From assembly GCA_964036295.1 (NCBI GenBank), contig OZ038467.1, positions 10,515,170 through 10,579,169 of the forward strand: a DNA stretch of 64,000 nucleotides. Direction: 5' to 3'. Under the pieces are notes generated by a model. The model was not told the DNA's origin. It did not search any database and was given only the letters and a program-made list of their open reading frames with translations. Source of the DNA: Plumapathes pennacea (Eukaryota > Cnidaria > Anthozoa > Antipatharia > Myriopathidae). Position numbers and translations under genes: made by a program. Shown here one piece after another: positions 18,756-60,720 of this stretch. Numbering within the stretch: position 1 is the first letter of the stretch; each line of letters starts with the position of its first letter.

Positions 18756-19325
18756 GCTTCTCTCGAACAAAAGGGGTTTTAGGAGAAAATTCTACGCTGT
18801 GTTCTTCCATAACGTGGGGCTCTTTGAAAACGACTTTGTGCTCACGGGACTGTCACTGTCTTGCAACCGCTAAAAGGACTGGGCCCAAGCAGGAAGAGAA
18901 AAGGCTCAGGGGAGGGATGGGGCAGTCGAGAATTTGGCTTCATCTAGAATTTCATAACGCTGCCAAGTTTGATTATTTAGTTATTTTTTGATCATGCACG
19001 TTGCCTCATTGTTGCAAAAGGCCTATAATTCAGTCAAGTGCACTTGCAGAGTAATTTGCAGGTTCTGCCAAAGCTACAAAATTTTTGTAGCTTTGGCAGG
19101 GGCAGAACCGGGGAAAGGTGATGAAAGTTAATTTAAATTTTTAATAAAAGTTGAATGTATTGTAATGTATATACATACTGAAATGGCTAAAATAAAATAA
19201 CTTAAAAGAGCTGTCCAGCGAAAATACCATATCCTATTTCCATACTTTCAGAAGACTGAAAATTCATATATGGCAAATATGTGTGGCTGACGTTAAAAAC
19301 AAAAGAAAAAAAAGCGCAATTCTGA
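18756..19325. promoter_or_regulatory. Upstream region of MFSD1 copy A
   Basis: Sequence 5' of the MFSD1 start, shared with copy B (49584-49685 and 52796-53558), but here without the 3.1-kb insertion seen in B. The core promoter should be here. About 300 bp present in B (near 53050-53370) is missing, and a snap-back palindrome lies at 19061-19109 near that deletion. Confidence 0.5.
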
Positions 19326-19956
19326 TTGGATTATAAACTTATGATATATGTCGCAAAAGAAAGAGTAAAAGTTTAAAAAGAAAAAAGAAAAAGAAAAATT
19401 AAAAAACCGAGTATTTAACCCGGCCCGATGACAACACACCGGTGGGTCGGGGGAGAGCTGCCCGGCCCCCAAGCCAGATCGAGGAGCAACTCGCCAACAC
19501 CCGCGAAACTTCCAGACCGAACGGGGAGAGATAATCCGGCCCCCAAGCCGTGGTGAATTATCCCTTGCCGAGAAGAGTGCGATAGTGGTGTCAGCCTAAC
19601 TTGTTAGTAATATGTATCCAATCAGCTATATAGCCTCCGAGACACCAGGTCCTTCGTCCATATGGGATGTGCCTTTGTATCGTCGCTTCTTCTATTACAA
19701 ATAATTGCAACGGCGGCTCATAATAACCTTGCTTTAGCTCCCTTCACATCCCATAATCATTTAATATCCGAGTTTTGCGCTCAGAGTTTACATTTAATGC
19801 CGCGTCAATAGCGGCTTCCAAGCTGTGATGTCAGCGCATGCGCTTCTGGGATTTTGGACTGATGGGCTGAACTTGTATTTACTGCAATATAAACATTTCA
19901 TGCGAGTCTATTTTTGAGCCCAAAAGTAGTATTTTCCGCAAAAAAAAAATTACCAA

Positions 19957-20628
19957 GACCCCGACCATCCTTAACAGGATCCCCCGACAATTCCTAGCAG
20001 GATCCCGACCATCCTTAGCAGGATCCCGACCATCCTTAGCAGGATCCCCGACCATCCTTAACAGGATCCCGACCATCCTTAACAAGATCCCGACCATCCT
20101 TAACAGGATCCCGACCATCCTTAGCAGGATCCCGACCATCCTTAACAGGATCCCGACCATCCTTAACAGGATCCCGACCATCCTTAACAGGATCCCGACC
20201 ATCCTTAACAGGATCCCGACCATCCTCAACAGGATCCCGACCATCCTTAACAGGATCCCGACCATCCTTAACAGGATCCCGACCATCCTCAACAGGATCC
20301 CGACCATCCTTAACAGGATCCCGACCATCCTTAACAGGATCCCGACCATCCTTAACAGGATCCCGACCATCCTTAGCAGGATCCCGACCATCCTTAACAG
20401 GATCCCGACCATCCTTAACAGGATCCCGACCATCCTTAACAGGATCCCGACCATCCTTAACAGGATCCCGACCATCCTCAACAGGATCCCGACCATCCTT
20501 AACAGGATCCCGACCATCCTTAACAGGATCCCGACCATCCTTAAAAGGATCCCGACTATCCTTAGCAGGATCCCGCCCATCCTTAACTAGATCCCGACCG
20601 TCCTTAGCAGGATCCCGACCATCCTTAG
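19957..20628. repeat. 21-bp minisatellite block 1, about 32 units
   Basis: Longest block. The unit carries GATCCCGACCATCC, followed mostly by TTAACAG, whereas later blocks have TTAGCAG or TTAGCTG. This TTAACAG variant is private to the block, so it expanded locally. Confidence 0.95.
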
Positions 20629-21750
20629 ATAGCTCTTTTTTATTTTATTTATCTTTTTTAATGGCCGATGTTGACAATTCTTTTTACCACAGCGCACCAA
20701 GAATTTCTCTGCTAATATTAATCAGTTTGACCTGAAATTTACTAAGAAGAATTGACCAACATATATCTGTGCATTGAGTTATGGATTTGATTAGAAAGTA
20801 AGGATTTCTGGAGATATAGCAAGAAAACAACGCAATTGGCTTGAAACTCTCCTATTTAGAACACGTTAACTGTTGCTCGATGATCTGTTCGTATGGTCGG
20901 TTATCTAAAATGTCGAGGATTGCGCACAGACATTTTTGTCATAGCATTAGAGAGCCTTCTTAAATGTTTCATGCGAGTCTGACATTAGGCCAAAACATAA
21001 TGGGCAATTTGCGACAAATGAAAAAGCCTATATCTTTCTTCTCTTAAATGGCTGTGGTTGACAAATGATTTTACCACCATGTACACAGATTTCTCTGCCA
21101 ATATTCATGAGTTAGGGATTGGATTCTAAACTTATGATATATGTCGCAAAAGAAAGAGTAAAAGTTTAAAAAGAAAAAAGAAAAAGAAAAATTAAAAATC
21201 CGAGTATTTAACCCTGCCCGATGACAACACACCGGTGGGTCGGGGGAGAGCTGCCCGGCCCCCAAGCCAGATCGAGGAGCAACTCGCCAACACCCGCGAA
21301 ACTTCCAGACCGAACAGGGAGAGATAATCCGGCCCCCAAGCCGTGGTGAATTATCCCTTGCCGAGAAGAGTGCGATAGTGGTGTCAGCCTAACTTGTTAG
21401 TAATATGTATCCAGTCAGCTATATAGCCTCCGAGACACCAGATCCTTCGTCCATATGGGATGTGCCTTTGTATCGTCGCTTCTTCTATTACAAATAATTG
21501 CAACGGCGGCTCATAATAGCTTGCTTTAGCTCCCTTCACATCCCATAATCATTTAATATCCGAGTTTTGCGCTCACAGTTTACAATTAATGCCGCGTCAA
21601 TAGCGGCTTGCAAGCTGTGATGTCAGCGCATGCGCTTCTGGGATTTTGGACTGATGGGCTGAACTTGTGTTTATTGCAATATAAACGTTTCATGCGAGTC
21701 TATTTTTGTGCCCAAAAGTAGTATTTTCCGCAAAAAAAAAAAAATTACCA

Positions 21751-21920
21751 AGATCCCGACCATCCTCCTCAGCAGGATCACGACCATCCTTAGCAGGATC
21801 CGGACCATCCTTAGCAGGATCCCGACCATCCTTAGCAGGATCCCGACCATCCTTAGCAGGATCCCAACCATCCTTAGCAGGATCCCGACCATCCTTAGCA
21901 GGATCCCCGACCATCCTTAG
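21751..21920. repeat. 21-bp minisatellite block 2, about 8 units
   Basis: Units of the TTAGCAG type, including one CCGGACC and one CCAACC variant, in the same order as at the end of block 10 (32329-32458). Confidence 0.9.
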
Positions 21921-23056
21921 ATAGCTCTTTTTTTTTTTTCTTTTTTTTTTTTTTAATGGCCGATGTTGACAATTCTTTTTACCACAGCGCAGCAAGAATT
22001 TCTCTGCTAATATTAATCGGTTTGACCTGAAATTTACTAAGACGAATTGACCAACATATATCTGTGCATTGAGTTATGGATTTGATTAGAAAGTGAGGAT
22101 TTATGGAGATATAGCAAGAAAACAACGCAATTGGCTTGAAACTCTTCTATTTAGAACACGTTAACTGTTGCTCGATGATCTGTTCGTATGGTCGGTTATC
22201 TAAAATGTCGAAGATTGCACACAGACATTTTTGTCATAGCATTAGAGAGCCATCTTGAATGTTTCATGCGAGTCTGACATTAGGCCAAAACACAATGGGC
22301 AATTTGCGACAAATGAAAAACCCTATAGCTTTCTTCTCTAAATGGCTGTGGTTGAAAAATGATTTTACCACCATGTACAAAGATTTCTCTGTCAATACTC
22401 ATCAGCTATGGATTGGATTATAAACTTATGATATATGTCGCAAAAGAAAGAGTAAAAGTTTAAAAAGAAAAAAGAAAAAGAAAAATTAAAAAACCGAGTA
22501 TTTAACCCGGCCCGATGACAACACACCGGTGGGTCGGGGGAGAGCTGCCCGGCCCCCAAGCCAGATCGAGGAGCAACTCGCCAACACCCGCGAAACTTCC
22601 AGACCGAACGGGGAGAGATAATCCGGCCCCCAAGCCGTGGTGAATTATCCCTTGCCGAGAAGAGTGCGATAGTGGTGTCAGCCTAACTTGTTAGTAATAT
22701 GTATCCAGTCAGCTATATAGCCTCCGAGACACCAGATCCTTCGTCCATATGGGATGTGCCTTTGTATCGTCGCTTCTTCTATTACAAATAATTGCAACGG
22801 CGGCTCATAATAGCTTGCTTTAGCTCCCTTCACATCCCATAATCATTTAATATCCGAGTTTTGCGCTCACAGTTTACATTTAATGCCGCGTCAATAGCGG
22901 CTTGCAAGCTGTGATGTCAGCGCATGCGCTTCTGGGATTTTGGACTGATGGGCTGAACTTGTGTTTATTGCAATATAAACGTTTCATGCAAGTCTATTTT
23001 TGTGCCCAAAAGTAGTATTTTCCGCAAAAAAAAAAAAAAAAAAAAAAAAATTACCA

Positions 23057-23181
23057 AGATCCCGACCATCCTTAGCAGGATCCGGACCATCCTTAGCAGG
23101 ATCCCGACTATCCTTAGCTGGATCTCGACCATCTTTAGCAGTATCCCGACCATCCTTAGCAGGATCTCCGACCATCCTTAG
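23057..23181. repeat. 21-bp minisatellite block 3, about 6 units
   Basis: Contains the variants CCGGACC, CTGGATCTCGACC and CATCTTTAGC that recur in order in blocks 6, 10 and 11. Confidence 0.9.
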
Positions 23182-24315
23182 ATAGCTCTTTTTTATTCTA
23201 TTTTATTTTTTTTTAATGGCCGATGTTGACAATTCTTTTCAGCACAGCGCAGCAAGAATTTCTCTGCTAATATTAATCGGTTTGACCTGAAATTTACTAA
23301 GAAGAATTGACCGAAATAAATCTGTGCATTGAATTATGGATTAGATTTGAAAGTAAGGATTTATGGAGATATAGCAAGAAAACAACGCAATTGGCCTTAA
23401 ACTCTTCTATTTAGAACACGTTAACTGTTGCTCGATGATCTGTTTGTATGGTCGGTTATCTAAAATGTCAAACATTGCACACAGACATTTTTGTTATAGC
23501 TTTAGAGAGCCTTCTTGAATATTTCATGCGAGTCTGACATTAGGCCAAAACATAATGGGCAATTTGCGACAAGTGAAAAACCCTATAGCTTTCTTCTCTT
23601 AAATGGCTGTGGTTGACAAATCAGTTTACCACCATGTACAAAGATTTCTCTGCCAATATTCATTAGCTATGGATTGGATTATAAACTTGATATATGTCGC
23701 AAAAGAAAGAGTAAAACTTTAAAAAGAAAAAAGCAAAAGAAAAATTAAAAAACCGAGTATTTAACCCAGCCCGATGACAACACACCGGTGGGTCGGGGGA
23801 GAGCTGCCCGGCCCCCAAGCCAGATCGAGGAGCAACTCGCCAACACCCGCGAAACTTCCAGACCGAACAGGGAGAGATAATCCGGCCCCCAAGCCGTGGT
23901 GAATTATCCCTTGCCGAGAAGAGTTCGATAGTGGTGTCAGCCTGACTTGTTAGTAATATGTATCCAATCTGCTATATAGCTTCCGAGACACCAGATCCTT
24001 CGTCCATATGGGATGTGCCTTTGTATCGTCGCTTCTTCTATTACAAATAATTGCAACGGCGGCTCATAATAGCTTGCTTTAGTTCTCTTCACATCCCATA
24101 ATCATTTAATATCCGAGTTTTGCGCTCAGAGTTTACATTTAATGCCGCGTCAATAGCGGCTTCCAAGCTGTGATGTCAGCGCATGCGCTTCTGGGATTTT
24201 GGACTGATGGGCTGAACTTGTGTTTATTGCAATATAAACGTTTCATGCGAGTCTATTTTTGTGCCCAAAAGTAGTATTTTCCGCAAAAAAAAAAAAAAAA
24301 AAAAAAAAATTACCA

Positions 24316-24356
24316 AGATCCCGACCATCCTTAGCAGGATCCCCGACCATCCTTAG
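24316..24356. repeat. 21-bp minisatellite block 4, 2 units
   Basis: Shortest block. The T-rich stretch that normally follows is deleted as well, so the monomer is only about 1.12 kb. Confidence 0.9.
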
Positions 24357-25432
24357 ATACCACAGCGCAGCAAGAATTTCTCTGCTAATATTAATCAGTT
24401 TGGCCTGAAATTCACTAAGAAGAATTGACCAACAAATCTTTAAATTGAATTATGGATTAGATTTGAAAGTAAGGATTTATGGAGATATAGCAAGAAAACA
24501 ACGCAATTGGCCTTAAACTCTTCTATTTAGAACACGTTAACTGTTGCTCGATGATCTGATCGTATGGTCGGTTATCTAAAATGTCGAAGATTGCACACAG
24601 ACATTTTTATCATAGCATTAGAGAGCCTTCTTAAATGTTTCATGCGAGTTTGACATTAGGCCAAAACATAATGGGCAATTTGCGACAAATGAAAAACCCT
24701 ATAGCTTTCTTCTCTTAAATGGCTGTGGTTGACAAATCATTTTACCACCATGTACAAAGATTTCTCTGCCAATATTCATTAGCTATGGATTGGATTATAA
24801 ACTTATGATATATGTCGCAAAAGAAAGAGTAAAAGTTTAAAAAGAAAAAAGAAAAAGAAAAATTAAAAATCCGAGTATTTAACCCTGCCCGATGACAACA
24901 CACCGGTGGGTCGGGGGAGAGCTGCCCGGCCCCCAAGCCAGATCGAGGAGCAACTCGCCAACACCCGCGAAACTTCCAGACCGAACGGGGAGAGATAATC
25001 CGGCCCCCAAGCCGTGGTGAATTATCCCTTGCCGAGAAGAGTGCGATAGTGGTGTCAGCCTAACTTGTTAGTAATATGTATCCAATCTGCTATATAGCCT
25101 CGGAGACACCAGATCCTTCGTCCATATGGGATGTGCCTTTGTATCGTCGCTTCTTCTATTACAAATAATTGCAACGGCGGCTCATGATAGCTTGCTTTAG
25201 TTCTCTTCACATCCCATAATCATTTTATATCCGAGTTTTGCGCTCACAGTTTACATTTAATGCCGCGTCAATAGCGGCTTGCAAGCTGTGATGTCAGCGC
25301 ATGCGCACTGGGATTTTGGACTGATGGGCTCAACCTGTGTTTATTGCAATATAAACGTTTCATGCGAGTCTATTTTTGTGCCCAAAAGTAGTATTTTCCG
25401 CAAAAAAAAAAAAAAAAAAAAAAAAATTACCA

Positions 25433-25536
25433 AAATCCCGACCATCCTTAGCAGGATCCCGACCATCCTTAGCAGGATCCCAACCATCCTTAGCAGGATC
25501 CCGACCATCCTTAGCAGGATCCCCGACTATCCTTAG
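25433..25536. repeat. 21-bp minisatellite block 5, about 5 units
   Basis: TTAGCAG-type units, with one CCAACC variant. Confidence 0.9.
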
Positions 25537-26659
25537 ATAGCTCTTTTTTATTTCATTTTATTTTTTTTAATGGCCGATGTTGACAATTCTTTTTACCACA
25601 GCGCAGCAAGAATTTTTCTGCTAATATTAATCACTTTGGCCTGAAATTCACTAAGAAGAATTGACCAACATATATCTGTGCATTGAATTATGGATTAGAT
25701 TTGAAAGTAAGGATTTATGGAGATATAGCAAGAAACAACGCAATTGGCCTTAAACTCTTCTATTTAGCACACGTTAATTGTTGCTCGATGATCTGATCGT
25801 ATGGTCCGTTATCTAAAATGTCGAAGATTGCACACAGACAATTTTGTCATAGCATTAGAGAGCCATCTTGAATGTTTCATGCGAGTCTGACATTAGGCCA
25901 AAACATAATGGGCAATTTGCGACAAATGAAAAACCCTATAGCTTTCTTCTCTTAAATGGCTGTGGTTGACAAATCATTTTACCACCATGTACAAAGATTT
26001 CTCTGCCAATATTCATCAGCTATGGGTTGGATTATAAACTTATGATATATGTCGCAAAAGAAAGAGTAAAAGTTTAAAAAGAAAAAAGAAAAAGAAAAAT
26101 TAAAAAACCGAGTATTTAACCCGGCCCGATGACAACACACCGGTGGGTCGGGGGAGAGCTGCCCGGCCCCCAAGCCAGATCGAGGAGCAACTCGCCAACA
26201 CCCGCGAAACTTCCAGACCGAACGGGGAGAGATAATCCGGCCCCCAAGCCGTGGTGAATTATCCCTTGCCGAGAAGAGTGCGATAGTGGTGTCAGCCTAA
26301 CTTGTTAGTAATATGTATCCAATCAGCTATATAGCCTCCGAGACACCAGATCCTTCGTCCATATGGGATGTGCCTTTGTATCGTCGCTTCTTCTATTACA
26401 AATAATTGCAACGGCGGCTCATAATAGCTTGCTTTAGCTCCCTTCACATCCCATAATCATTTAATATCCGAGTTTTGCGCTCATAGTTTACAGTTAATGC
26501 CGCGTCAATAGCGGCTTGCAAGCTGTGATGTCAGCGCATGCGCACTGGGATTTTGGACTGATGGGCTCAACCTGTGTTTATTGCAATATAAACGTTTCAT
26601 GCGAGTCTATTTTTGTGCCCAAAAGTAGTATTTTCCGCAAAAAAAAAAAAAAATTACCA

Positions 26660-26911
26660 AGATCCCGACCATCCTTAGCAGGATCTGCGACCATCATTAG
26701 CTGGATCCCGACAATCCTTAGCTGGATCCCGACCATCCTTAGCTGGATCCCGACCATCCTTAGCAGGATCCCGACCATCCTTAGCAGGATCCCGACCATC
26801 CTTAGCAGGATCCCGACCATCCTTAGCAGGATCCCGACTATCCTTAGCTGGATCTCGACTATCTTTAGCAGGATCCCGACCATCTTTAGCAGGATCCCCG
26901 ACCATCCTTAG
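26660..26911. repeat. 21-bp minisatellite block 6, about 12 units
   Basis: Mix of AGCAGG and AGCTGG units, ending in the CATCTTTAGC variants. Confidence 0.9.
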
Positions 26912-28044
26912 ATAGCTCTTTTCTATTTTCTTCTTTTTTTTTTTAATGGCCGATGTTGACAATTCTTTTTACCACAGCGCAGCAAGAATTTCTCTGCTAA
27001 TATTAATCGGTTTGGCCTGAAATTTACTAAGAAGTATTGACCAAAATAAATCTGTGCATTGAATTAAGGATTAGATTTGAAAGTAAGGATTTATGGAGAT
27101 ATAGCAAGAAAACAACGCAATTGGCTTGAAACTCTTCTATTTAGAACACGTTAACTGTTGCTCGATGATCTGTTCGTATGGTCGGTTATCTAAAATGTCG
27201 AAGATTGCACACAGACATTTTTATCATAGCATTAGAGAGCCTTCTTAAATGTTTCATGCGAGTCTGACATTAGGCCAAAACATAATGGGCAATTTGCGAC
27301 AAATGAAAAACCCTATAGCTTTCTTCTCTTAAATGGCTGTGGTTGACAAATCATTTTACTACCATGTACAAAGATTTCTCTGCCAATATTCATCAGCTAT
27401 GGATTGGATTATAAACTTATGATATATGTCGCAAAAGAAAGAGTAAAAGTTTAAAAAGAAAAAAGAAAAAGAAAAATTAAAAAACCGAGTATTTAACCCA
27501 GCCCGATGACAACACACCGGTGGGTCGGGGGAGAGCTGCCCGGCCCCCAAGCCAGATCGAGGAGCAACTCGCCAACACCCGCGAAACTTCCAGACCGAAC
27601 GGGGAGAGATAATCCGGCCCCCAAGCCGTGGTGAATTATCCCTTGCCGAGAAGAGTGCGATAGTGGTGTCAGCCTAACTTGTTAGTAATATGTATCCAAT
27701 CTGCTATATAGCCTCCGAGACACCAGATCCTTCGTCCATATGGGATGTGCCTTTGTATCGTCGCTTCTTCTATTACAAATAATTGCAACGGCGGCTCATA
27801 ATAGCTTGCTTTAGCTCCCTTCACATCCCATAATCATTTAATATCCGAGTTTTGCGCTCACAGTTTACATTTAATGCCGCGTCAATAGCGGCTTGCAAGC
27901 TGTGATGTCAGCGCATGCGCACTGGGATTTTGGACTGATGGGCTGAACTTGTGTTTATTGCAATATAAACGTTTCATGCGAGTCTATTTTTGTGCTCAAA
28001 AGTAGTATTTTCCGCAAAAAAAAAAAAAAAAAAAAAATTACCAA

Positions 28045-28190
28045 GATCCCGACCATCCTTAGCAGGAACCCCGACCATCCTTAGCAGGATCCCGACCATC
28101 CTTAGTTGGATCCCGACCATCCCTAGCTGGATCCCGACCATCCTTAGCAGGATCCCGACCATCCTTAGCAGGATCCCCGACCATCCTTAG
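28045..28190. repeat. 21-bp minisatellite block 7, about 7 units
   Basis: AGCAGG, AGTTGG and AGCTGG variants of the same unit. Confidence 0.9.
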
Positions 28191-29317
28191 ATGGCTCTTT
28201 TTTTATTTTATTTAATTCTTTTAATGGCCGATGTTGACAATTCTTTTTACCACAGCGCAGCAAGAATTTCTCTGCTAATATTAATCGGTTTGGCCAGAAA
28301 TTTACTAAGAAGAATTGACCAAAATAAATCTGTGCATTGAATTATGGATTAGATTTGAAATTAAGGATTTATGGAGATATAGGAAGCAAACAACGCAATT
28401 GGCCTTAAACTCTTCTATTTAGAACACGTTAACTGTTGCTCGATGATCTGTTCGTATTGTCGGTTATCTAAAATGTCGAAGATTGCACACAGACATTTTT
28501 GTCATAGCATTAGAGAGCCATCTTGAATGTTTCATGCGAGTCTGACATTAGGCCAAAACATAATGGGCAATTTGCGACAAATGAAAAACCCTATAGCTTT
28601 CTTCTCTTAAATGGCTGTGATTGACAAATGATTTTACCACCATGTACAAAGATTTCTCTGCCAATATTCATCAGCTATGGATTGGATTATAAACTTATGA
28701 TACATGTCGCAAAAGAAAGACTAAAAGTTTAAAAAGAAAAAAAGAAAAAGAAAAATTAAAAAACCGAGTATTTAACCCGGCCCGATGACAACACACCGGT
28801 GGGTCGGGGGAGAGCTGCCCGGCCCCCAAGCCAGATCGAGGAGCAACTCGCCAACACCCGCGAAACTTCCAGACCGAACGGGGAGAGATAATCCGGCCCC
28901 CAAGCCGTGGTGAATTATCCCTTGCCGAGAAGAGTGCGATAGTGGTGTCAGCCTAACTTGTTAGTAATATGTATCCAATCTGCTATATAGCCTCCGAGAC
29001 ACCAGATCCTTCGTCCATATGGGATGTGCCTTTGTATCGTCGCTTCTTCTATTACAAATAATTGCAACGGCGGCTCATAATAGCTTGCTTTAGCTCCCTT
29101 CACATCCCATAATCATTTAATATCCGAGTTTTGCGCTCATAGTTTACAGTTAATGCCGCGTCAATAGCGGCTTGCAAGCTGTGATGTCAGCGCATGCGCT
29201 TCTGGGATTTTGGACTGATGGGCTGAACTTGTGTTTATTGCAATATAAACGTTTCATGCGAGTCTATTTTTGTGCCCAAAAGTAGTATTTTCCGCAAAAA
29301 AAAAAAAAAATTACCAA

Positions 29318-29588
29318 GATCCCGACCATCCTTAGCAGGATCCGGACCATCCTTAGTAGGATCCCGACCATCCTTAGCTGGATCCCGACCATCCTTAGCA
29401 GGATCCCGACCATCCTTAGCTGGATCCCGACCATCCTTAGCTGGATCCCGACCATCCTTAGCAGGATCCCGACCATCCTTAGCTGGATCCCGACCATCCT
29501 TAGCTGGATCCCGACCATCCTTAGCAGGATCCCGACCATCCTTAGCAGGGTCCCGACCATCCTTAGCAGGATCCCCGACCATTCTTAG
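29318..29588. repeat. 21-bp minisatellite block 8, about 13 units
   Basis: AGCTGG and AGCAGG units alternate in a roughly three-unit pattern. Confidence 0.9.
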
Positions 29589-30712
29589 ATTTTTTTTTTA
29601 TTTTCTTTTCTTTTTTTTAATGGCCGATGTTGACAATTCTTTTTACCACAACGCAGCAAGAATTTCTCTGCTAATATTAATCGGTTTGGCTTGATATTTA
29701 CTAAGAAGAATTGACCGAAATAAATCTGTGCATTGAATTATGGATTAGATTTGAAAGTGAGGATTTATGGAGATATAGCAAGAAAACAACGCAATTGGCT
29801 TGAAACTCTTCTATTTAGAACACGTTAACTGTTGCTCGATGATCTGTTCGTATGGTCGGTTATCTAAAATGTCGAAGATTGCACACAGACAATTTTGTCA
29901 TAGCATTAGAGAGCCATCTTGAATGTTTCATGCGATTCTGACATTAGGCCAAAACATAATGGGCAATTTGCGACAAATGAAAAACCCTATAGCTTTCTTC
30001 TCTTAAATGGCTGTGATTGACAAATGATTTTACCACCATGTACAAAGATTTCTCTGCCAATATTCATCAGCTATGGATTGGATTATAAACTTATGATACA
30101 TGTCGCAAAAGAAAGACTAAAAGTTTAAAAAGAAAAAAGAAAAAGAAAAATTAAAAAACCGAGTATTTAACCCGGCCCGATGACAACACACCGGTGGGTC
30201 GGGGGAGAGCTGCCCGGCCCCCAAGCCAGATCGAGGAGCAACTCGCCAACACCCGCGAAACTTCCAGACCGAACGGGGAGAGATAATCCGGCCCCCAAGC
30301 CGTGGTGAATTATCCCTTGCCGAGAAGAGTGCGATAGTGGTGTCAGCCTAACTTGTTAGTAATATGTATCCAATCTGCTATATAGCCTCCGAGACACCAG
30401 ATCCTTCGTCCATATGGGATGTGCCTTTGTATCGTCGCTTCTTCTATTACAAATAATTGCAACGGCGGCTCATAATAGCTTGCTTTAGCTCCCTTCACAT
30501 CCCATAATCATTTAATATCCGAGTTTTGCGCTCAGAGTTTACATTTAATGCCGCGTCAATAGCGGCTTGCAAGCTGTGATGTCAGCGCATGCGCTTCTGG
30601 GATTTTGGACTGATGGGCTGAACTTGTGTTTATTGCAATATAAACGTTTCATGCGAGTCTATTTTTGTGCCCAAAAGTAGTATTTTCCGCAAAAAAAAAA
30701 AAAAAATTACCA

Positions 30713-30880
30713 AGATCCCGACCATCCTTAGCAAGATCCCCGACCATCCTTAGCAGGATCCCGACCATCCTTAGCTGGATCCCGACCATCCTTAGCTGGA
30801 TCCCGACCATCCTTAGCAGGATCCCGACCATCCTTAGCAGGATCCCGACCATCCTTAGCAGGATCCCCGACCATTCTTAG
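30713..30880. repeat. 21-bp minisatellite block 9, about 8 units
   Basis: Same unit; ends with the ATTCTTAG variant shared with blocks 8 and 11. Confidence 0.9.
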
Positions 30881-31997
30881 ATTTTGTTTTTTATTTTGTT
30901 TTTTTTTTTAATGGCCGATGTTGACAATTCTTTTTACCACAACGCACCAAGAATTTCTCTGCTAATATTAATCGGTTTGGCTTGAAATTTACTAAGAAGA
31001 ATTGACCGAAATAAATCTGTGCATTGAATTATGGATTAGATTTGAAAGTAAGGATTTATGAAGATATAGCAAGAAAACAACGCAATTGGCTTGAAACTCT
31101 TCTATTTAGAACACGTTAACTGTTGTTCGATGATTTGTTCGTTTGGTCGGGTATCTAAAATGTCGAAGATTGCACACAGACATTTTTGTCATAGCATTAG
31201 AGAGCCTTCTTGAATGTTTCATGCGAGTCTGACATTAGGCCAAAACATAATGGGCAATTTGCGACAAATGAAAAACCCTATAGCTTTCTTCTCTTAAATG
31301 GCTGTGGTTGACAAATCATTTTACCACCATGTACAAAGATTTCTCTGCCAATATTCATCAGCTATGGATTGGATTATAATTTTATGATATATGTCGCAAA
31401 AGAAAGAGTAAAAGTTTAAAAAGAAAAAAGAAAAAGAAAAATTAAAAAACCGAGTATTTAACCCGGCCCGATGACAACACACCGGTGGGTCGGGGGAGAG
31501 CTGCCCGGCCCCCAAGCCAGATCGAGGAGCAACTCGCCAACACCCGCGAAACTTCCAGACCGAACGGGGAGAGATAATCCGGCCCCCAAGCCGTGGTGAA
31601 TTATCCCTTGCCGAGAAGAGTGCGATAGTGGTGTCAGCCTAACTTGTTAGTAATATGTATCCAATCAGCTATATAGCCTCCGAGACACCAGATCCTTCGT
31701 CCATATGGGATGTGCCTTTGTATCGTCGCTTCTTCTATTACAAATAATTGCAACGGCGGCTCATAATAGCTTGCTTTAGCTCCCTTCACATCCCATAATC
31801 ATTTAATATCCGAGTTTTGCGCTCAGAGTTTACATTTAATGCCGCGTCAATAGCGGCTTGCAAGCTGTGATGTTAGCGCATGCGCTTCTGGGATTTTGGA
31901 CTGATGGGCTGAACTTGTGTTTATTGCAATATAAACGTTTCATGCGAGTCTATTTTTGTGCCCAAAAGTAGTTTTTTCCGGAAAAAAAAATTACCAA

Positions 31998-32458
31998 AAT
32001 CCCGACTATCCTTAGCAGGATCCCCGACCATCCTTACCTGGATCCCGACCATCCTTAGCTGGATCCCGACCATCCTTAGCAGGATCCCGACCATCCTTAG
32101 CAGGATCCCGACCATCCTTAGTAGGATCCCGACCATCCTTAGCTGGATCTCGACCATCTTTAGCAGGATCCCGACCATCCTTAGCAGGATCCGGACCATC
32201 CTTAGCAGGATCCCGACCATCCTTAGCAGGATCCCGACCATCCTTAGCAGGATCCCGACCATCCTTAGTAGGATCCCGACCATCCTTAGCTGGATCTCGA
32301 CCATCTTTAGCAGGATCCCGACCATCCTTAGCAGGATCCGGACCATCCTTAGCAGGATCCCGACCATCCTTAGCAGGATCCCGACCATCCTTAGCAGGAT
32401 CCCAACCATCCTTAGCAGGATCCCGACCATCCTTAGCAGGATCCCCGACCATCCTTAG
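31998..32458. repeat. 21-bp minisatellite block 10, about 22 units with a 147-bp higher-order repeat
   Basis: Seven-unit sets with variant order AGTAGG, AGCTGGATCT, CATCTTTAG, CCGGACC are repeated twice in tandem (about 32060-32345), giving a higher-order period of 147 bp. Confidence 0.9.
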
Positions 32459-33579
32459 ATAGCTCTTTTTTTTTTTTCTTTTTTTTTTTTTTAATGGCCG
32501 ATGTTGACAATTCTTTTTACCACAGCGCAGCAAGAATTTCTCTGCTAATATTAATCGGTTTGACCTGAAATTTACTAAGACGAATTGACCAACATATATC
32601 TGTGCATTGAGTTATGGATTTGATTAGAAAGTGAGGATTTATGGAGATATAGCAAGAAAACAACGCAATTGGCTTGAAACTCTTCTATTTAGAACACGTT
32701 AACTGTTGCTCGATGATCTGTTCGTATAGTCGGTTATCTAAAATGTCGAAGATTGCACACAGACATTTTTGTCATAGCATTAGAGAGCCATCTTGAATGT
32801 TTCATGCGAGTCTGACATTAGGCCAAAACACAATGGGCAATTTGCGACAAATGAAAAACCCTATAGCTTTCTTCTCTAAATGGCTGTGGTTGAAAAATGA
32901 TTTTACCACCATGTACAAAGATTTCTCTGTCAATACTCATCAGCTATGGATTGGATTATAAACTTATGATATATGTCGCAAAAGAAAGAGTAAAAGTTTA
33001 AAAAGAAAAAAGAAAAAGAAAAATTAAAAAACCGAGTATTTAACCCGGCCCGATGACAACACACCGGTGGGTCGGGGGAGAGCTGCCCGGCCCCCAAGCC
33101 AGATCGAGGAGCAACTCGCCAACACCCGCGAAACTTCCAGACCGAACGGGGAGAGATAATCCGGCCCCCAAGCCGTGGTGAATTATCCCTTGCCGAGAAG
33201 AGTGCGATAGTGGTGTCAGCCTAACTTGTTAGTAATATGTATCCAATCAGCTATATAGCCTCCGAGACACCAGATCCTTCGTCCATATGGGATGTGCCTT
33301 TGTATCGTCGCTTCTTTTATTACAAATAATTGCAACGGCGGCTCATAATAGCTTGCTTTAGCTCCCTTCACATCCCATAATCATTTAATATCCGAGTTTT
33401 GCGCTCAGAGTTTACATTTAATGCCGCGTCAATAGCGGCTTGCAAGCTGTGATGTCAGCGCATGCGCTTCTGGGATTTTGGACTGATGGGCTGAACTTGT
33501 GTTTATTGCAATATAAACGTTTCATGCGAGTCTATTTTTGTGCCCAAAAGTAGTTTTTTCCGGAAAAAAAAATTACCAA

Positions 33580-33788
33580 AATCCCGACTATCCTTAGCAG
33601 GATCCCCGACTATCCTTAGCTGGATCCCGACCATCCTTAGCTGGATCCCGACCATCCTTAGCTGGATCCCGACCATCCTTAGCTGGATCCCGACCATCCT
33701 TAGTAGGATCCCGACCATCCTTAGCTGGATCTCGACCATCTTTAGCAGGATCCCGACCATCCTTAGCAGGATCCCCGACCATTCTTAG
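33580..33788. repeat. 21-bp minisatellite block 11, about 10 units
   Basis: Mostly AGCTGG units, then AGTAGG, AGCTGGATCT and CATCTTTAG as in block 10. Confidence 0.9.
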
Positions 33789-35705
33789 ATAGCTCTTTTT
33801 TATTTATTTATTTATTTTTTTTAATGGCCGATGTTGACAATTCTTTTTACCACAGCGCAGCAAGAATTTCTCTGCTAATATTAATCGGTTTGGCCTGAAA
33901 TTTACTAAGAAGAATTGACCGAAATAAATCTGTGCATTGAATTATGGATTAGATTTGAAAGTAAGGATTTATGGAGATATAGCAAGAAAACAACGCAATT
34001 GGCTTGAAACTCTTCTATTTAGAACACGTTAACTGTTGCTCGATGATCTGTTCGTATGGTCGGTTATCTAAAATGTCGAAGATTGCACACAGACATTTTT
34101 GTCATAGCATTAGAGAGCCTTCTTGAATGTTTCATGCGAGTCTGACATTAGGCCAAAACATAATGGGCAATTTGCGACAAGTGAAAAACCCTATAGCTTT
34201 CTTCTCTTAAATGGCTGTGATTGACAAATAATTTTATCACCATGTACAAAGATTTCTCTGCCAATATTCATCAGCTATGGATTGGATTATAAACTTATGA
34301 TATATGTCGCAAAAGAAAGAGTAAAAGTTTAAAAAGAAAAAAGAAAAAGAAAAATTAAAAAACCGAGTATTTAACCCGGCCCGATGACAACACACCGGTG
34401 GGTCGGGGGAGAGCTGCCCGGCCCCCAAGCCAGATCGAGGAGCAACTCGCCAACACCCGCGAAACTTCCAGACCTAACGGGGAGAGATAATCCGGCCCCC
34501 AAGCCGTGGTGAATTATCCCTTGCCGAGAAGAGTGCGATAGTGGTGTCAGCCTAACTTGTTAGTAATATGTATCCAATCAGCTATATAGCCTCCGAGACA
34601 CCAGGCCCTTCATCCATATGGGATGTACTTCTGTATCGTCGCTTCTTCTATTACGAATAATTGCAACGGCGCCGGCTCATAATAACCATGTTTTAGCTCC
34701 CTTAATATCCCATAATCATTTAATATCCGAGTTTTGCGGTGAGAGTTTATGTTTAATGCCGCGTCAATAGCGGCTTGCAAGCTGTGATGTCAGCGCATGC
34801 GCTTCTGGGATTTTGGGCTGATGGGCTGAACTTGTGTTTACTTCTATATAAACGTTTCATGCGAGTCTATTTTTGTTCCCAAAAGGAGTATTGTCCGGGA
34901 AAAAAAATGCACAGGTTGCCATAGCTCTTTTTTAATTTCTTTTTTTTATTGATTGCCGATTTTTGACGATTGTTTTTACCACAGCGCAGCAAGAATTTCT
35001 CTGCTAATATTAATTGCTTTGGCCTGAAATTCACTAAGAAGAATTCTCAAGCAGAGATCTGTGCATTGAGTTATGGATTTGATTAGAAAGTAAGGATTTA
35101 TGGAAATATAGCAAGAAAACAACGCAATTGACTTGAAGCTCTTCTATTTAGAACACGTTAACTGTTGCTCGATGATCTGTTCGTACGGTCGGTTATCTAA
35201 AATGTCGAAGATTGCACACAGACATTTTTGTCATAGCATTAGAGAGCGTTTTTGAATGTTTCGTGCGAGTCTGACATTAGGCCAAAACATAATGGGCAAT
35301 TTCCGACAAATGAAAATGCCTATAGTTTTCGTCTCCTGAATGGCTGTTGTTGACAAATCATTTTACTACCACGTGCAAAGATTTCTCTGCCAATATTCAT
35401 TAGTTATGGATTGGATTATAAACTTATGATATGTCGCAAAAGAAACAGTGAAACTTTTTAAAGAAAAAAGAAAAAGAAAAATTGAAAATCCGAGTATTTA
35501 ACCCGGCCCGATGACAGCATACCGGTGGTTTGGGGGAGAGCTGCCCGGCCCCAAGCCAGATCGAGGAGCAACTCGCCAACACCCGCGAAACTCCCAGACC
35601 GAACGGGCAGAGATAATCCGGTCCCCAAGCCGTGGTGAGTTATCCCTTTCCCAGAAGAGTGCGATAGTGGTGTCAGCCTAACTTGTTAGTAATATGTATC
35701 CAATG

Positions 35706-36007
35706 AGCGTGTTTTTCCGTGTTTTTCGATGTATTCCTATTGATTCCCCTGTATTCGCATGTATTCCTATGTATTCGTATGTATTCCCGTGTTTTTCCAT
35801 GTATTGTTCGACCAATCAGAACGTGGCTTTTATTGTGACTATCACTATCTATTCCCCTGTATTCTCATGTATTCTCATTTATTCCATGTATTTCTATATA
35901 TTTTTGTGTATTCCCGTGTATTCATATGTATCCTCATGTCTATTCCCATTTATTCTCGTGTAATCCCATGCATTTCTGTGTATGTATTCCTACGTATTCT
36001 CCTGTCT
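35706..36007. repeat. 10-bp minisatellite TGTATTCCYA, left arm
   Basis: About 25 imperfect units of TGTATTCCCA/TGTATTCCTA type on the plus strand, starting where the satellite array ends. A unique stretch at about 35800-35850 interrupts it. The same unit occurs inverted at 37004-37232. Confidence 0.85.
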
Positions 36008-50139: not shown

Positions 50140-51923
50140 GGGTAGGTACAAAACCTGGACCCCCCTATTTGGACCCCCATTTGGACCCCCTTTTGGACCC
50201 CCTTTTGGACCCCCATTTGGACCCCCATTTTTTTAATAACAAAAATAAAATATATATTAATAATTAATGATGATAATATTGATGTAATAATAATACAATT
50301 TCTCATATATAATTAAATGAAAAGCCAATAAAACTGCGTTCTGCGGGCTGCGAGCTGAAAAGTCACTTTAAAAAATTAAAAAGAAAATAGAAAAAAGTCC
50401 GTCTTTTTGTGTTTGCTTCGCTTTGTTTGTCAGCGATTTTTTTCTTAATAGCACTTTTTTTTTGTAGCAACAATTTACAACAAAATATAAAGGGGTCAGT
50501 TTATTTCTTCACACTGGTTGTCTGCTTTATGTCTTTCCTGCAAGGTAAACGTCACTTATTTATTTTATTTTGACCGTCTTTACTTGTGGTTTACTTCGCT
50601 ATACAGTCAACTCACTGTAATCAAGACGCGAAAAAGCGAAAGAAGAATGCAAGTGATTCCAGTAAAAGGCTGTGCAAGTGTGTGTTTTCGCCTGTTAAGT
50701 GTATATACCTGACGGGAAAAGTGACGATATGCATTGATTACTCCCTACTGTCAGGTCTGGTATATTTTATTATTTCCAGGGACGTACCTGTCATCAGGTC
50801 TATTTTCAGGTCTGTTATAAAACTTCGTAAACATCCGGTGTCCGCTTTGAAAGGATTTTTTTTATTGAAATGTTTAATAAAAATGTGTCCGCTGTCCGCC
50901 TTAGAGAGAGTTCAGTTACAGCGGAGAAACAAGTGAAATTCAGCAGGGACCAAATTTGCTTTCCGCCTTTTTAGAGAGTGTCCGCTTAGAGAGAGTTGAC
51001 TGTATTCAAACCAGAAATGCCAGTAAAGGCTGGTTCACACGAGCAAGCAAGCGCAAATGCAAACGCAAGCGCAAGCGACTGGTTCAAACGGTAAAATTTG
51101 TGAAGCAAGTCTCCCGTGTGCCAGGGCCGGAAAGATCCGCTCTACAGGAGTCGTGCAGCGTTTCCGGTTTCACAATATAGTTTGAATCGTACGCAATTTG
51201 TATTGCATAATTCTTATTTGCTTTCTCAAATGTGAAGCAACGCGCGCTTAAGAACCTGTGTTATCGCCAGAAATCCACACTTTAAGGCGGATAACCTTGT
51301 AATTAGTCTGAAGCAAACCGTAACAAGTGTTCTGAGAAACTATCTTTTGGCCCGTCTGAGCGAGTAATTTTGAAAGGCATGAAATTCTGCATTATGTGGG
51401 AGAGGTACTTAGGAGCCTCGAAACGATTATTTGGCTTCATCACCTTCTAAAGTCATTGCTGTTTTGTCACATCAGTTAATAATATGTTATTTTGTTTGAC
51501 TTTGTTATAGAGTGTAATAAATAAATTAGCACGATCTCCCACATCTATTGTTTGCATTCTCTTGTTAAAGTTACTGGATAAAGTGCTATTAAGAAAAAAA
51601 TCGCTGACAAACAAAGCGAAGCAAACACAAAAAGACGGACTTTTTTCTATTTTCTTTTTAATTTTTTAAAGTGACTTTTCAGCTCGCAGCCCGCAGCTCG
51701 CAGCCCGCAGCTTGCAGTTTTATTGGCTTTTCATTTAATTATATATGAGAAATTGTATTATTATTACATCAATATTATCATCATTAATTATTAATATATA
51801 TTTTATTTTTGTTATTAAAAAAATGGGGGTCCAAATGGGGGTCCAAAAGGGGGTCCAAAAGGGGGTCCAAAAGGGGGTCCAGATGGGGGTCCAAATGGGG
51901 GGGTCCAGGTTTTGTACCTACCC
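50140..51923. mobile_element. Nested fold-back element with minisatellite ends, 9-bp target duplication GATTTTTAG
   Basis: Long inverted arms (about 50140-50457 and 51580-51923) begin with GGGTAGGTACAAAACC, then tandem GGACCCCCATTT/GGACCCCCTTTT units (about 6 per arm), then a shared AT-rich stretch and a GCAGCCCGCAGCTCGC-type segment. GATTTTTAG flanks it at 50131-50139 and 51924-51932. Inside is another TIR element (50604-51002). It is non-coding and could fold into a hairpin of more than 300 bp. Confidence 0.85.
50604..51002. mobile_element. TIR miniature element nested in the fold-back element, TA target duplication
   Basis: The ends are CAGTCAACTC and GAGTTGACTG, flanked by TA. The right part has GTGTCCGCTTAGAGAGAG, related in style to the 'attaagcggcc' element at 1740-2144. 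This is a third nesting level. Confidence 0.65.
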
Positions 51924-57296: not shown

Positions 57297-57492
57297 TCAC
57301 CTTTATGACACATCACATCACACCGGAAAAACAATTTCGATCACCAGAACGAGGCGCTCGCTCATAAGTGAAATCTGCGCATGTCAGACAGTGTATCACG
57401 TTTCTACAAGCGGTTACTCCTTTGGTAGCGCAGCCGTTCGATGAAGAGTCTTCTAGTTGCCACACGTAGAATTGCTTACAGTAAGACTGATC
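57297..57492. promoter_or_regulatory. Upstream region of RNF34
   Basis: Sequence between the RNF34 start codon and the dispersed repeat beginning at about 57493. The promoter should be here; no TATA box is evident. Confidence 0.4.
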
Positions 57493-57661
57493 GAAAGCTA
57501 ACCCCAGGCCCTGGTATGAAGTCAAACACTCTTCAACGAAGTCGGCACACGTGAATGTAAACTATTTCCAGGATGCACTTCAAAAAAGGAATACGAGAAG
57601 GACAAACATTTTGGATGCAAAAGTAAACAAATAAACAAAAATATGGAAAACGAATTATTTA

Positions 57662-57708
57662 ATACCGAGTCATTTCCCTGACAGTCACCCATCCTAGTAT
57701 TAACCCCG
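57662..57708 (-). repeat. 5S rRNA-derived segment (box C region)
   Basis: On the minus strand it reads GGGGTTAATACTAGGATGGG then TGACTGTCAGGGAA, matching the 3' half of eukaryotic 5S rRNA around the internal control region box C. It is too short and diverged to be a functional 5S gene. 5S-derived SINEs (SINE3 class) are the likely source. Confidence 0.6.
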
Positions 57709-58079
57709 CATATCCATTCATAGCAAAAACGAAGCAAACTTCCCCGTCATGACAGGGGTTCTGCTAGTAACTTATAATCAAATCCATAATTCATTGCAGA
57801 ACTGTGCATGTTACTCTCCACAGTGATTTTCCGGCCAAACTGGTGAATGTTTCCAGAGCAATCCTTGTTACCTGGTAGTAAACGAAATGAGTTTGGGAAT
57901 AAACGATAAGCTGTCAGGTTATTGTATATGGGACTACTGGAACCGATGAAAGAAAAAACGAGATTTTGATGACGGGATGACGCAACTTTATCACAAACTC
58001 TATGTCAAAGTTGGCACATTTGACTGTAAACTACTCTTAGACAGTGATTTGCAATTCGAAAAGGAAAAGAAAAGGAGGT

Positions 58080-58540
58080 TTGGTCGCAAAAAGTTAGAAA
58101 GAAAAACCGGGTATCGAACCCGGCCCCATGACACCGCACAGTGATCGGGGGAGAGTTGCCCGGCCCCCAAGCCAGATCGAGGAGCAACCCGCCAACACCC
58201 GTCTACGCCTAGCTTCCAGACCGAACGGGGAGAGATAATTTGGCCCCCAAGCCATAGTAAATTATCCCTTGCCCGGAAGAGCGCAGTAGATGTCAGCCGA
58301 CTTATTAGTAATATGTATCCAGTCAGCTATATAGCCTTTGAGACACCAGGCCCTTCATCCATATGGGATGTACTTTTGTATCGCCGCTCCTTCTATTTCG
58401 AATAACTTCACTGTCCTCTCATAATAACCATGCTTTAGTTCCTTTTACATCCTAAAATCACTTAATATCCGACTTTGAGTTTACATTTACGGCGTCAATT
58501 ATAGGTATGCAAGCTATGGTAGCAGCGCATGCGCAACAGT
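58080..58540. repeat. Diverged solitary copy of the satellite monomer core
   Basis: Matches the array monomer from the CCGRGTAT block through the paired hairpins, CATATGGGATGT, and GCAGCGCATGCGC. It has no minisatellite and keeps an intact B box, unlike the array monomers. Confidence 0.85.
58107..58123 (-). promoter_or_regulatory. tRNA-like T arm / Pol III B box, copy 1
   Basis: The minus strand reads CCGGGTTCGATACCCGG: a perfect 5-bp stem with the TTCGATA loop, containing the B box GGTTCGATACC. A weak A-box match (TGGCTTGGGGG) lies about 55 nt upstream, near 58165-58176. No complete tRNA cloverleaf is present. Confidence 0.7.
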
Positions 58541-59098
58541 ACTTCTGCTTTTTCGTTTTTGATTGTGACTTTGACAAGAGAAATGTCAGGTGTTCGCAAG
58601 ATCACTAGTTGAACCGATGGGATAAGGCTTAATCGTATTTAACAACAAGTGAAGTTTTGCGGTAGAAAAGCACAATTTTCGTGGCGTTTATATCAAGTGT
58701 TGTTCGTTTTCGAAACCAAATCTGCCCTTTAATTTTTTTTTTTTAGCTCTTTGGCATACAGGGTCAGCCTGCTTTGGCACGTTTGACATGTCATTTGGCG
58801 ACTTTTCCGGTTTTACCGACATTTTCCGAGCTTTTATTGAAAGCTAACCCCAGGCCCTGGAATGAAGTCAAGCACTCTTCGACGAATTAAGTCGGCGGCA
58901 CACGTGACTGTAAACTTTTTTCCAGGATGCTCTTGGACGCACTTCAAAAAAAGAAATCGAAAAGGAAACACGCTTTGGTTGCAAAAAAACAAGCAAACAA
59001 ACAAAAAACAAACAAACAAACAAAAACAAAACAAAAAACAAAAACAAAAAAACAAAAAAAAAAAAAAAAACATTGAAATATGGAAAAGGAATTATTAT

Positions 59099-59130
59099 AA
59101 GTACTAACCCCGCATGACCGGGCTTAGCTT
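59099..59130 (-). repeat. 5S rRNA-derived segment (box A region)
   Basis: The minus strand reads AAGCTAAGCCCGGTCATG then CGGGGTTAGTACTT, matching the box A / intermediate element part of 5S rRNA. The box C part retained in the first copy (57662-57708) is missing here. Confidence 0.6.
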
Positions 59131-59532
59131 GTGTTTAATGTTAAATGATCCCTAGCAAAAACCAAACAAAAACTTCTATTTTTTCGGAACACTAAACTTC
59201 CCCATATACGGGGGTTCTGACAATAACCTATAATCAAATCCATAATTCATTGCACGGAACTGTGCATGTTACTCTCCACAGTGATTTTCCGGCCAAATGT
59301 GAATGCTTGCAGAGCAATCCTCGTTACCTGATAGTAAACGAAATGAGTTTGGGAATAAACGATAAGCTGTCCGGGTTATTGTATATGGGACTACTAGAAC
59401 CGGCGAAAGAAAAACTACGAGATTTTGATGACGGGATGACGCAACTTTATCACAAACTATCTTAGACAGTGACTTGCAATTCGAAAAAGAAAACAAAAGG
59501 ATGTTTTGGTCGCAAAAAGTTAAAAAGAAAAA

Positions 59533-59549
59533 CCGGGTATCGAACCCGG
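59533..59549 (-). promoter_or_regulatory. tRNA-like T arm / Pol III B box, copy 2
   Basis: Identical to 58107-58123. In this copy the segment containing the A-box-like sequence and first hairpin is deleted (GAGAGTAACCCGCC). Confidence 0.7.
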
Positions 59550-59959
59550 CCCCATGACACCGCACAGTGGTCGGGGGAGAGTAACCCGCCAACACCCATT
59601 TGCGCCTCCAGACCGAACGGGAAAGGATAATTCGGCCCCAAAGTTATAGTGAATTATCACTTTTCCAGAAGAGCGCAGCAGATTTCAGTTAGGCTTAGCT
59701 TTTGGTCGAAAATCGGCCCATGTTGACCAATATTATAAATCCTTCCAAACTTTCAGGAAACCTTACTGCGACTATAATGAGACTTCAGATATAGTTTTAA
59801 AACTACGCATTTATTTGGTGTAGTTTTGACCGGAAATGGCAGTTTGTTTTGCGAAGTTTGAAGTCTTCCCAGCAACGTCGATATTTCGTTGAAACGTGGT
59901 CGCGACGTCAGACAACCAGATACAACGTCTTTGCATGCAACGTTATATTTCCGACGTTT

Positions 59960-60720
59960 AACAAAACGTTACAATTTGAAGTTGCATCAACGTAGAATTG
60001 TGGTTGTACTGAGCACGCCGATTTCTCCTACTTCCACTCATACGAATATCCCCCAAAACAAAACCAAAATTCAACGTCTCGTCAACGTTATGTTTTCGAC
60101 GTTTAACAAACGTTTGAATTTGACGTTGCATCAACGTAGAATTATGGCTGTGTAAGAACACCAATTTTCTCATAAATCCACTCATCCGAATATCCCGTAT
60201 AGAACCAAAATACAACGTCATTCCAACGTTATGCTTGCGACGTTTAATAAACGTTAGAATTTGACGTTGCATCAACGTAGACTTATGGTTGTGTGACTGA
60301 GGACGCCAATTTATTCTTGATTCACTGTCCGCATATCCCGTATAGAATCCAAAATATAACGTCGTTCCAAAGTTATGTTTGCGACGTTTAACAAACGTTA
60401 GAATTTGACGTTGCATCAACGTAGAACTATTGGTTGTGTGAGAACACCAATTTTCTCATAAATCCACTCACCCGAATATCCCGTATAGAAACCAGAATAC
60501 GTTATTCCAACGTTATGTTTGCGACGTTTAACAGACGTTAGAATTTGACGCTACATCGACCTAGAGTTATGATTATGTGAGGACGCCAATTTACTCTTAA
60601 TTCACTGTACGAATATCCGTATAGAAACCAAAATACAACGTCATTTCAACGTTACCACATCTCAGATATTGAAACTCAGAATTAGACGTTGCATCAACGT
60701 AGAATTGTGGTTGACGTCAT
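59960..60720. repeat. Tandem repeat of about 143 bp, roughly 6 units, ACGTT-rich
   Basis: GACGTTGCATCAACGTAG recurs, with changes, at about 59977, 60121, 60263, 60408, 60549 and 60687. Each unit also has CGACGTTTAACAAACGTT and CGAATATCCCGTATAGAA. ACGTT/AACGT palindromic motifs dominate. It is open in some frames by chance only. Confidence 0.85.

Follow-up and report, generated by a model that had tools for sequence, protein, structure and literature searches.

A Small-RNA-Gene-Like Repeat Cassette and Its Relationship to Satellite Arrays in Plumapathes pennacea

The window analyzed here, i.e., a stretch of 64,000 nucleotides of Plumapathes pennacea DNA (C6:10515170-10579169; assembly of 290 Mb in 24 contigs), contains at about 58 kb a sequence core that bears a tRNA-like B box and, some distance away, a satellite array with a mutated version of that box. 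Protein domains of the EXO5 and RNF34/RFFL types are in keeping with an animal genome. The core and the array raise the question of whether a dispersed Pol III-type element was the ancestor of the satellite and, if so, in which order the box was lost, a minisatellite gained and the units amplified in tandem.

The 58-kb core locus and the satellite array

Aligned over 227-452 bases, the core at 58080-58540 was 79.9-84.1% identical to the 13 array copies found at 19402-35702, confirming the relationship between core and satellite on which the original prediction was built. At full length, it is a 463-bp cassette on the minus strand (58088..58550), which we assign to a family termed A. The array itself (19324..35708, minus strand) comprises 12 full and one partial core copies spaced 1.1-1.8 kb apart, with the core-to-core spacing varying with the length of a 21-bp minisatellite. 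The longest block of the latter (19960..20627, no strand assigned) holds 31.7 copies and the blocks in later monomers are shorter; the window as a whole has 95 occurrences of the minisatellite motif CCGACCATCC and 96 of GACCATCCTTA. When compared with one window copy, the 12 full array cores were 95.1-100% identical and the partial core 93.9%, while the units of an array elsewhere in the genome (L028) were 96.5-99.5% identical to one of their number. Both arrays consist of near-identical monomers arranged head-to-tail, i.e., both are satellites. Among the matches listed, tandem runs of 2 to approximately 18 monomers were present on several chromosomes. Two 12-bp minisatellites of the TGGACCCCCATT type also lie in the window, at 50156-50231 and 51821-51901, in opposite orientation and 1.6 kb apart.

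On its minus strand, the core has CCGGGTTCGATACCCGG, a T-arm-like hairpin with a 5-bp stem that contains a perfect B box (58107..58123) and is directly followed by TTTTTC (58101..58106), a T-run that is a candidate Pol III terminator. The T-arm shape is rare in shuffled sequence: a TTCRANN loop with a stem of at least 5 bp, on either strand, arose in 4 of 3000 letter-shuffled 463-mers. The predicted difference between a perfect box in the core and a mutated one in the arrays was borne out in the window, where GGTTCGATACC occurs on the minus strand in two places only, both at the 58-59 kb core locus, and all 13 array copies carry GGTTAAATACT. As predicted, too, the core has no minisatellite, the 21-bp repeat being absent from the tandem-repeat listing for 57-60 kb.

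The core had been described as a solitary copy, but a second, truncated copy (59506..59688, minus strand; 97.4% identity over the first 77 bases) carries the same perfect box at 59532-59552 (C6:10574701), approximately 1.4 kb from the first and in the same orientation. Segments of 57490-57999 recur at 58836-59458 and, together with the second core, they indicate that the 58-59 kb locus is a degraded direct repeat of approximately 1.35-1.43 kb. Adjoining the degraded core pair is a tandem repeat of approximately 144 bp, rich in CAACGTT (59938-60719).

Descent of the arrays and order of events

A DNA search of the genome with the core scored the best 40 of 636 candidates, so the sample represents the top scorers of a larger family. 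These best 40 of 636 matches lie in one block each on five chromosomes (C1, 3.5-4.8 Mb; C3, 16.7-18.1 Mb; C4, 13.4-13.7 Mb; C5, 5.4-7.4 Mb; C6, 9.2-10.6 Mb); a pericentromeric family might look the same. A 33-mer from the most conserved hairpin of the cassette had 538 genome matches with at most 2 mismatches and none in a reversed control. The 21-mer with the intact box had 14 exact matches and 205 with at most 2 mismatches, and the 26-mer with the broken box had 192 at the latter tolerance.

From the loci fetched (20 of 10 kb and 10 of 1.6-4 kb), three families built around the one core were recognized, i.e., the box-bearing family A, which is dispersed or paired; an array type with subtypes that we labeled B, G and C; and family D. 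Family A cores form direct pairs at three loci (the window, L015 and L020), so that no clean line divides "dispersed" from "tandem"; at L024, two A cores lie in opposite orientation approximately 4.5 kb apart. Genes for tRNA were seen close to family A copies at L024:3445-3517 and L018:5865-5939.

A tree was built from 68 of 76 core matches, comprising 34 array-type (12 from the window), 23 A and 11 D cores; it omits four L029/L030 matches, which are re-fetches of L023, and four matches of fewer than 300 query bases (two window copies, one L033 and one L039). The 34 array-type cores formed one clade with 100/100 support, as did the 11 D cores (100/100). A further clade, again with 100/100 support, united the array cores with four A rows, three of which (L013, L017 and L019) carry GGTTCGATACC and the fourth of which does not. 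Family A would be a grade containing the array clade if the root falls on the side of D, which joined A at a weak 41/69; the root was set at the midpoint. Consensus identities were 0.74-0.75 between A and D and 0.70-0.72 between the arrays and D; it is because A is nearer to D than the arrays are that the midpoint-rooted tree suggests a polarity from A to the arrays. Terminal branches measured 0.013-0.095 for 21 of the 23 A rows, with 0.14 and 0.20 for two truncated rows, and 0-0.033 for the array cores, except for L035 at 0.28. The rows L010:4963, L015:6320 and L035 run beyond their truncation into unrelated sequence, giving rise to long branches.

Two loci bear directly on the direction of descent. 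At L010:5298, an array starts where an A copy breaks off, as seen by comparison with an L028 unit, and at L013 the flank of an A core also matches array spacer. Taken together, the L010 junction, the shared spacer and the tree support the view that the arrays arose from A. The central claim of the original prediction, that the satellite descends from a box-bearing element, is thereby strengthened, both by the 100/100 array clade within the putative A grade and by the L010 junction; judged from sequence, the arrays appear to descend from a family in which the perfect box was kept.

The states of the box itself were more varied than a simple division into scattered and tandem copies would suggest. 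Of 23 A cores, 15 carried GGTTCGATACC, seven carried variants and one was unrecognized, whereas the 34 array-type cores comprised 14 with GGTTCAATACC, 19 with GGTTAAATACT and one unrecognized. The B-box consensus is GGTTCRANNCC, which GGTTCAATACC fits, and the tRNA gene at L024:3445-3517 of the same genome has GGTTCAAGTCC. The loci L010, L028 and L033 are tandem with a GGTTCAATACC box, and the 21-bp minisatellite was found in none of the three. Since tandem arrays outside the window thus keep a consensus-fitting box, tandem amplification appears to have preceded box loss.

The minisatellite motifs CCGACCATCC and GACCATCCTTA were absent from all 52 fetched loci over which they were counted, including the box-broken arrays L036-L039 and L042. 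The array types are homologous outside the core as well, at approximately 75-96% in the longer aligned pieces. These two findings point to the minisatellite as a later insert, and its absence from the 52 loci suggests that it came last and mostly locally. An exact minisatellite 34-mer occurs at 36 genomic sites: C6 has 29, all at 10.53-10.90 Mb, and the other seven are on C1, C7, C8 and C11. The proposed order of promoter loss, minisatellite gain and then tandem amplification is not borne out, since the three GGTTCAATACC loci are already tandem and showed no minisatellite.

A different succession may be envisaged. One branch of family A, dispersed and box-bearing, would have become array-forming units, and these may have multiplied head-to-tail through unequal exchange or the reinsertion of circles at a time when the box still resembled the consensus. 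In the sub-branch represented in the window, the invariant C of the box would have disappeared later, and the 21-bp minisatellite would then have entered a group of box-broken arrays that is mostly local. Satellites derived from Pol III repeats are already known, but the steps are seldom visible. Here, one genome holds box-bearing dispersed units, consensus-box arrays without the minisatellite, broken-box arrays without the minisatellite, and arrays with both the broken box and the minisatellite. With such intermediates surviving, the order of events is testable.

Layout and conservation of the cassette

On its minus strand, the 58-kb cassette carries a GCGCATGCGC palindrome at the upstream end of the conserved block (58525..58534), followed by a CATCCCATATGGA island (58358..58370), a candidate proximal sequence element that is an invariant run among seven family consensuses. 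TATATA, a candidate TATA box (58328..58333), lies 24 bp from the end of this 13-mer and is separated by approximately 225 bp from the T-run. A putative RNA start would lie approximately 28-32 bp from the first T of TATATA, near 58301-58305. Downstream are hairpin 2 (58231..58269, minus strand; AGGGATAATT...AATTATCTCT on the RNA strand, with the loop GGCTTGGGGGCC), hairpin 1 (58153..58190, minus strand), which shares this loop and the 3' flank but is built on another stem sequence, and the T-arm-like hairpin. Among the 68 cores, TATATA was present in 67, GCGCATGCGC in 63, CATCCCATATGGA in 59, at least four T directly after the core in 56 and a strict B box in 29, making the latter the least kept of the five features, all of which were motifs chosen after the alignment had been seen. 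A TATA box and a terminator-like T-run at fixed places (67/68 and 56/68) are features of snRNA-type Pol III genes, and we take the layout as a whole to match that of a small RNA gene driven from an upstream promoter.

Type 3 Pol III genes such as U6 have a distal element, a conserved element upstream of the TATA box and a T-run, and tRNA-Sec has a hybrid promoter with an internal B box as well. The cassette resembles U6-type genes in having a distal element, a conserved element before TATA and a T-run. The distance from conserved element to TATA is roughly 17 bp in vertebrate U6, somewhat less than the 24 bp seen here.

Of the 378 ungapped columns shared by the seven family consensuses, 218 were invariant, and these were clustered. 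In descending order, the runs were 18, 13, 13, 13, 10 and 8 columns long, the last column of the 18-long run spanning a gap in D; not arranged by length, their sequences are GCGCATGCGC, CATCCCATATGGA, AGGGATAATTCAC, GGCTTGGGGGCCG, ATTATCTCTCCCCGTTCG and CTCTCCCC. When columns were shuffled, the observed longest run was reached in 10 of 2000 trials and the second in 7 of 2000, while the third and fourth were each reached in 0 of 2000. Three of the four longest runs are contained in, or begin in, hairpin 2. The B box is not among the invariant runs, and the longest of these lie away from it.

Tests of RNA folding gave less clear results. Helices were 99.1% paired over 46 of the 70 sequences extracted, and 93 of 107 changed cells in helices were still standard pairs (sum of the per-pair table), both figures being biased by the prediction of the structure from the same alignment. 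Covariation was not above that of shuffles, 122 of 500 of which reached the observed score. Folding at the alignment level gave a z of -1.5 for the minus strand against 100 column shuffles, and of +0.8 for the plus strand, and single-sequence folding was modest and alike on the two strands (z -2.2 minus, -2.5 plus). The combination, in hairpins 1 and 2, of differing self-complementary stems with a shared loop and 3' flank is what would be expected if the stems matter.

No Rfam family was matched at the gathering threshold in the whole window, and the matches of the core below threshold were chance-like (E 0.16-3.1), with scores far under those required for gathering; in this, the putative cassette RNA is unlike U6 and tRNA-Sec. 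In six plus 15 further fetched loci, Rfam detected two tRNA genes above the gathering score and no snRNA gene. Matches to microRNA models and to one frameshift-element model in the six loci were below the gathering score. An apparent likeness between parts of the cassette, each short, and the 7SK, vault and Y RNAs was dropped.

We put at about even the chance that this repeat family is founded on a cassette resembling a small RNA gene, with its promoter upstream, and that the satellites stem from one branch of the family. The core itself was probably, at one time at least, a small RNA gene read by Pol III or from an snRNA-type promoter. Its minus strand would then present the palindrome, the CATCCCATATGGA element and the TATA box, followed by approximately 200 nt folding into two sibling hairpins and the T-arm-like hairpin and closed by the T-run; the T-arm with its B box would be the 3' hairpin of the RNA and possibly a helper element. 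Such a cassette would have been dispersed across the genome as a repeat. Alternatively, the core could be conserved because its copies share a recent ancestor or because it serves transposition, and not on account of an RNA.

Alternative origins and known systems

A tRNA-derived SINE, i.e., a LINE-copied element with a short type 2 transcript and internal A and B boxes, from which the satellite arose, would explain why a perfect B box sits within a T-arm-like fold (4/3000 by chance) with a T-run behind it, as well as the box carried by 15 of 23 A copies and by 14 of 34 array cores. The exact A-box consensus was indeed found in 2 of the 15 A copies with a strict B box (TGGCTTAGGGG, in L011 and L012), but the A box was one mismatch off in the other 13 and in all 14 strict-box array cores, and one mismatch or better was reached in 1091 of 2000 shuffles, i.e., at chance level. 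Measured from a type 2 start near 58190, conservation extends for over 300 bp in the upstream direction, ARAGORN found no tRNA within the window, and the 19 A loci showed no common ends, although indels in old copies also break BLAST matches. Furthermore, D cores had the box in 0 of 11 and the T-arm in 0 of 11, and the core is kept in D despite the missing T-arm. We consider a SINE origin unlikely. The B box alone was dropped as a mark of a SINE, and the proposal that the element is of Pol III type by virtue of this box is weak by itself, given the chance-level A box, the missing T-arm in D and the position of the longest invariant runs away from the box.

Family D suggests another origin, namely a DNA transposon with long terminal inverted repeats, of which A and the arrays would be broken or tandem derivatives and in which the conserved islands would serve transposition. 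D cores were paired in inverted orientation at five of six loci (L040, L023, L041, L031 and L032), with an inverted repeat of 1001 bp and 99.6% identity at L040:433-3436, and an inverted pair of C-type cores was found at L037 (707-1299 with 1874-2463; 96%). In family D, the long inverted repeats expected of such a transposon were present at dispersed loci. The core lies internal to the inverted repeat, away from its tips; L026 has a divergent single D core with no partner within its 10 kb; and, L024 excepted, most fetched A loci and arrays have no inverted pair of same-family cores. This origin thus seems distinctly improbable for the family as a whole. As D looks young (99.6% at L040) and may spread as an inverted-repeat element, conservation in D need not mean RNA function.

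The D element measures approximately 3 kb (L040:433-3436, L023:573-3595) and has inverted repeats of approximately 1 kb with one core per arm, the RNA strand of each core pointing outward; at L041, L031 and L032, the inverted repeats are shorter or cut by the fetch. The left edge of the L037 pair lies, within 1 bp, at the same unit position as that of the window array.

Family A units at five loci and in the window contain a 5S rRNA-derived piece, which in the window lies at 57673..57724 (minus strand; E 0.004, a weak match) and, in the next unit, at 59099..59130 (minus strand; E 0.010). The piece, seen also at L019:4566-4617 and L017:6126-6186, is a segment of the 5S internal promoter. Debris of a 5S rDNA-linked cluster, in which pseudogene units of 5S and a linked small RNA gene became repeats, is very unlikely to be the source of the family: the segment is well supported in two A units (E 5e-10 in L017, 2.7e-8 in L019) and, of the 35 genomic matches scored for it, 19 fall no more than 1 kb from a core match, but the other 16 are not near a core among the best 40 of 636, and the segment is partial, diverged and, at E 0.05, not matched in the fetched arrays or D loci.

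Returning to the small-RNA-gene-like cassette, a bolder version of this reading is that it represents an undescribed animal small RNA gene family with a hybrid promoter (upstream PSE/TATA plus internal B box), amplified in three ways, i.e., as scattered or paired units with the 5S piece, as tandem satellites and within the inverted repeats of a transposon-like element, with some copies still transcribed. We offer this version only tentatively and think it rather doubtful. If the cassette were a true RNA gene, it would be a new one, with an upstream promoter, that had supplied material to a satellite as well as to a transposon-like element. There are hundreds of copies of this cassette of approximately 460 bases in one animal genome; the satellite step itself is ordinary in kind. 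No description of the core was found among the titles and abstract openings listed in the literature searches, which is not proof of its being unpublished.

Several known systems offer comparisons. In the frog PcP190 satellite, a conserved part derived from a Pol III gene is combined with a variable part, a composition resembling that seen here; the PcP190 conserved region is itself 5S-like, whereas in P. pennacea 5S is a side piece of family A only (PMC11675491, PMC4201667). The PcH-Sat satellite of the limpet Patella caerulea derives from Nin-SINE, has a 179-bp monomer, makes up approximately 10% of the genome and is mainly pericentromeric by FISH (PMC11121367). The present satellite is likewise related to a SINE-type segment, but has a monomer of more than 1 kb and hundreds of copies. 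In squamate reptiles, portions of SINEs belonging to several families have given rise to tandem arrays of modest size, with several independent origins (PMC10702118). The arrays described here are similar in being modest tandem arrays from a Pol III-type interspersed repeat, and differ in that no common ends were seen, the conserved part is upstream-promoter-like and the monomers exceed 1 kb. Of the systems found, none comes nearer as a precedent for the satellite of P. pennacea than the SINE-derived satellites of squamates (PMC10702118) and PcH-Sat (PMC11121367).
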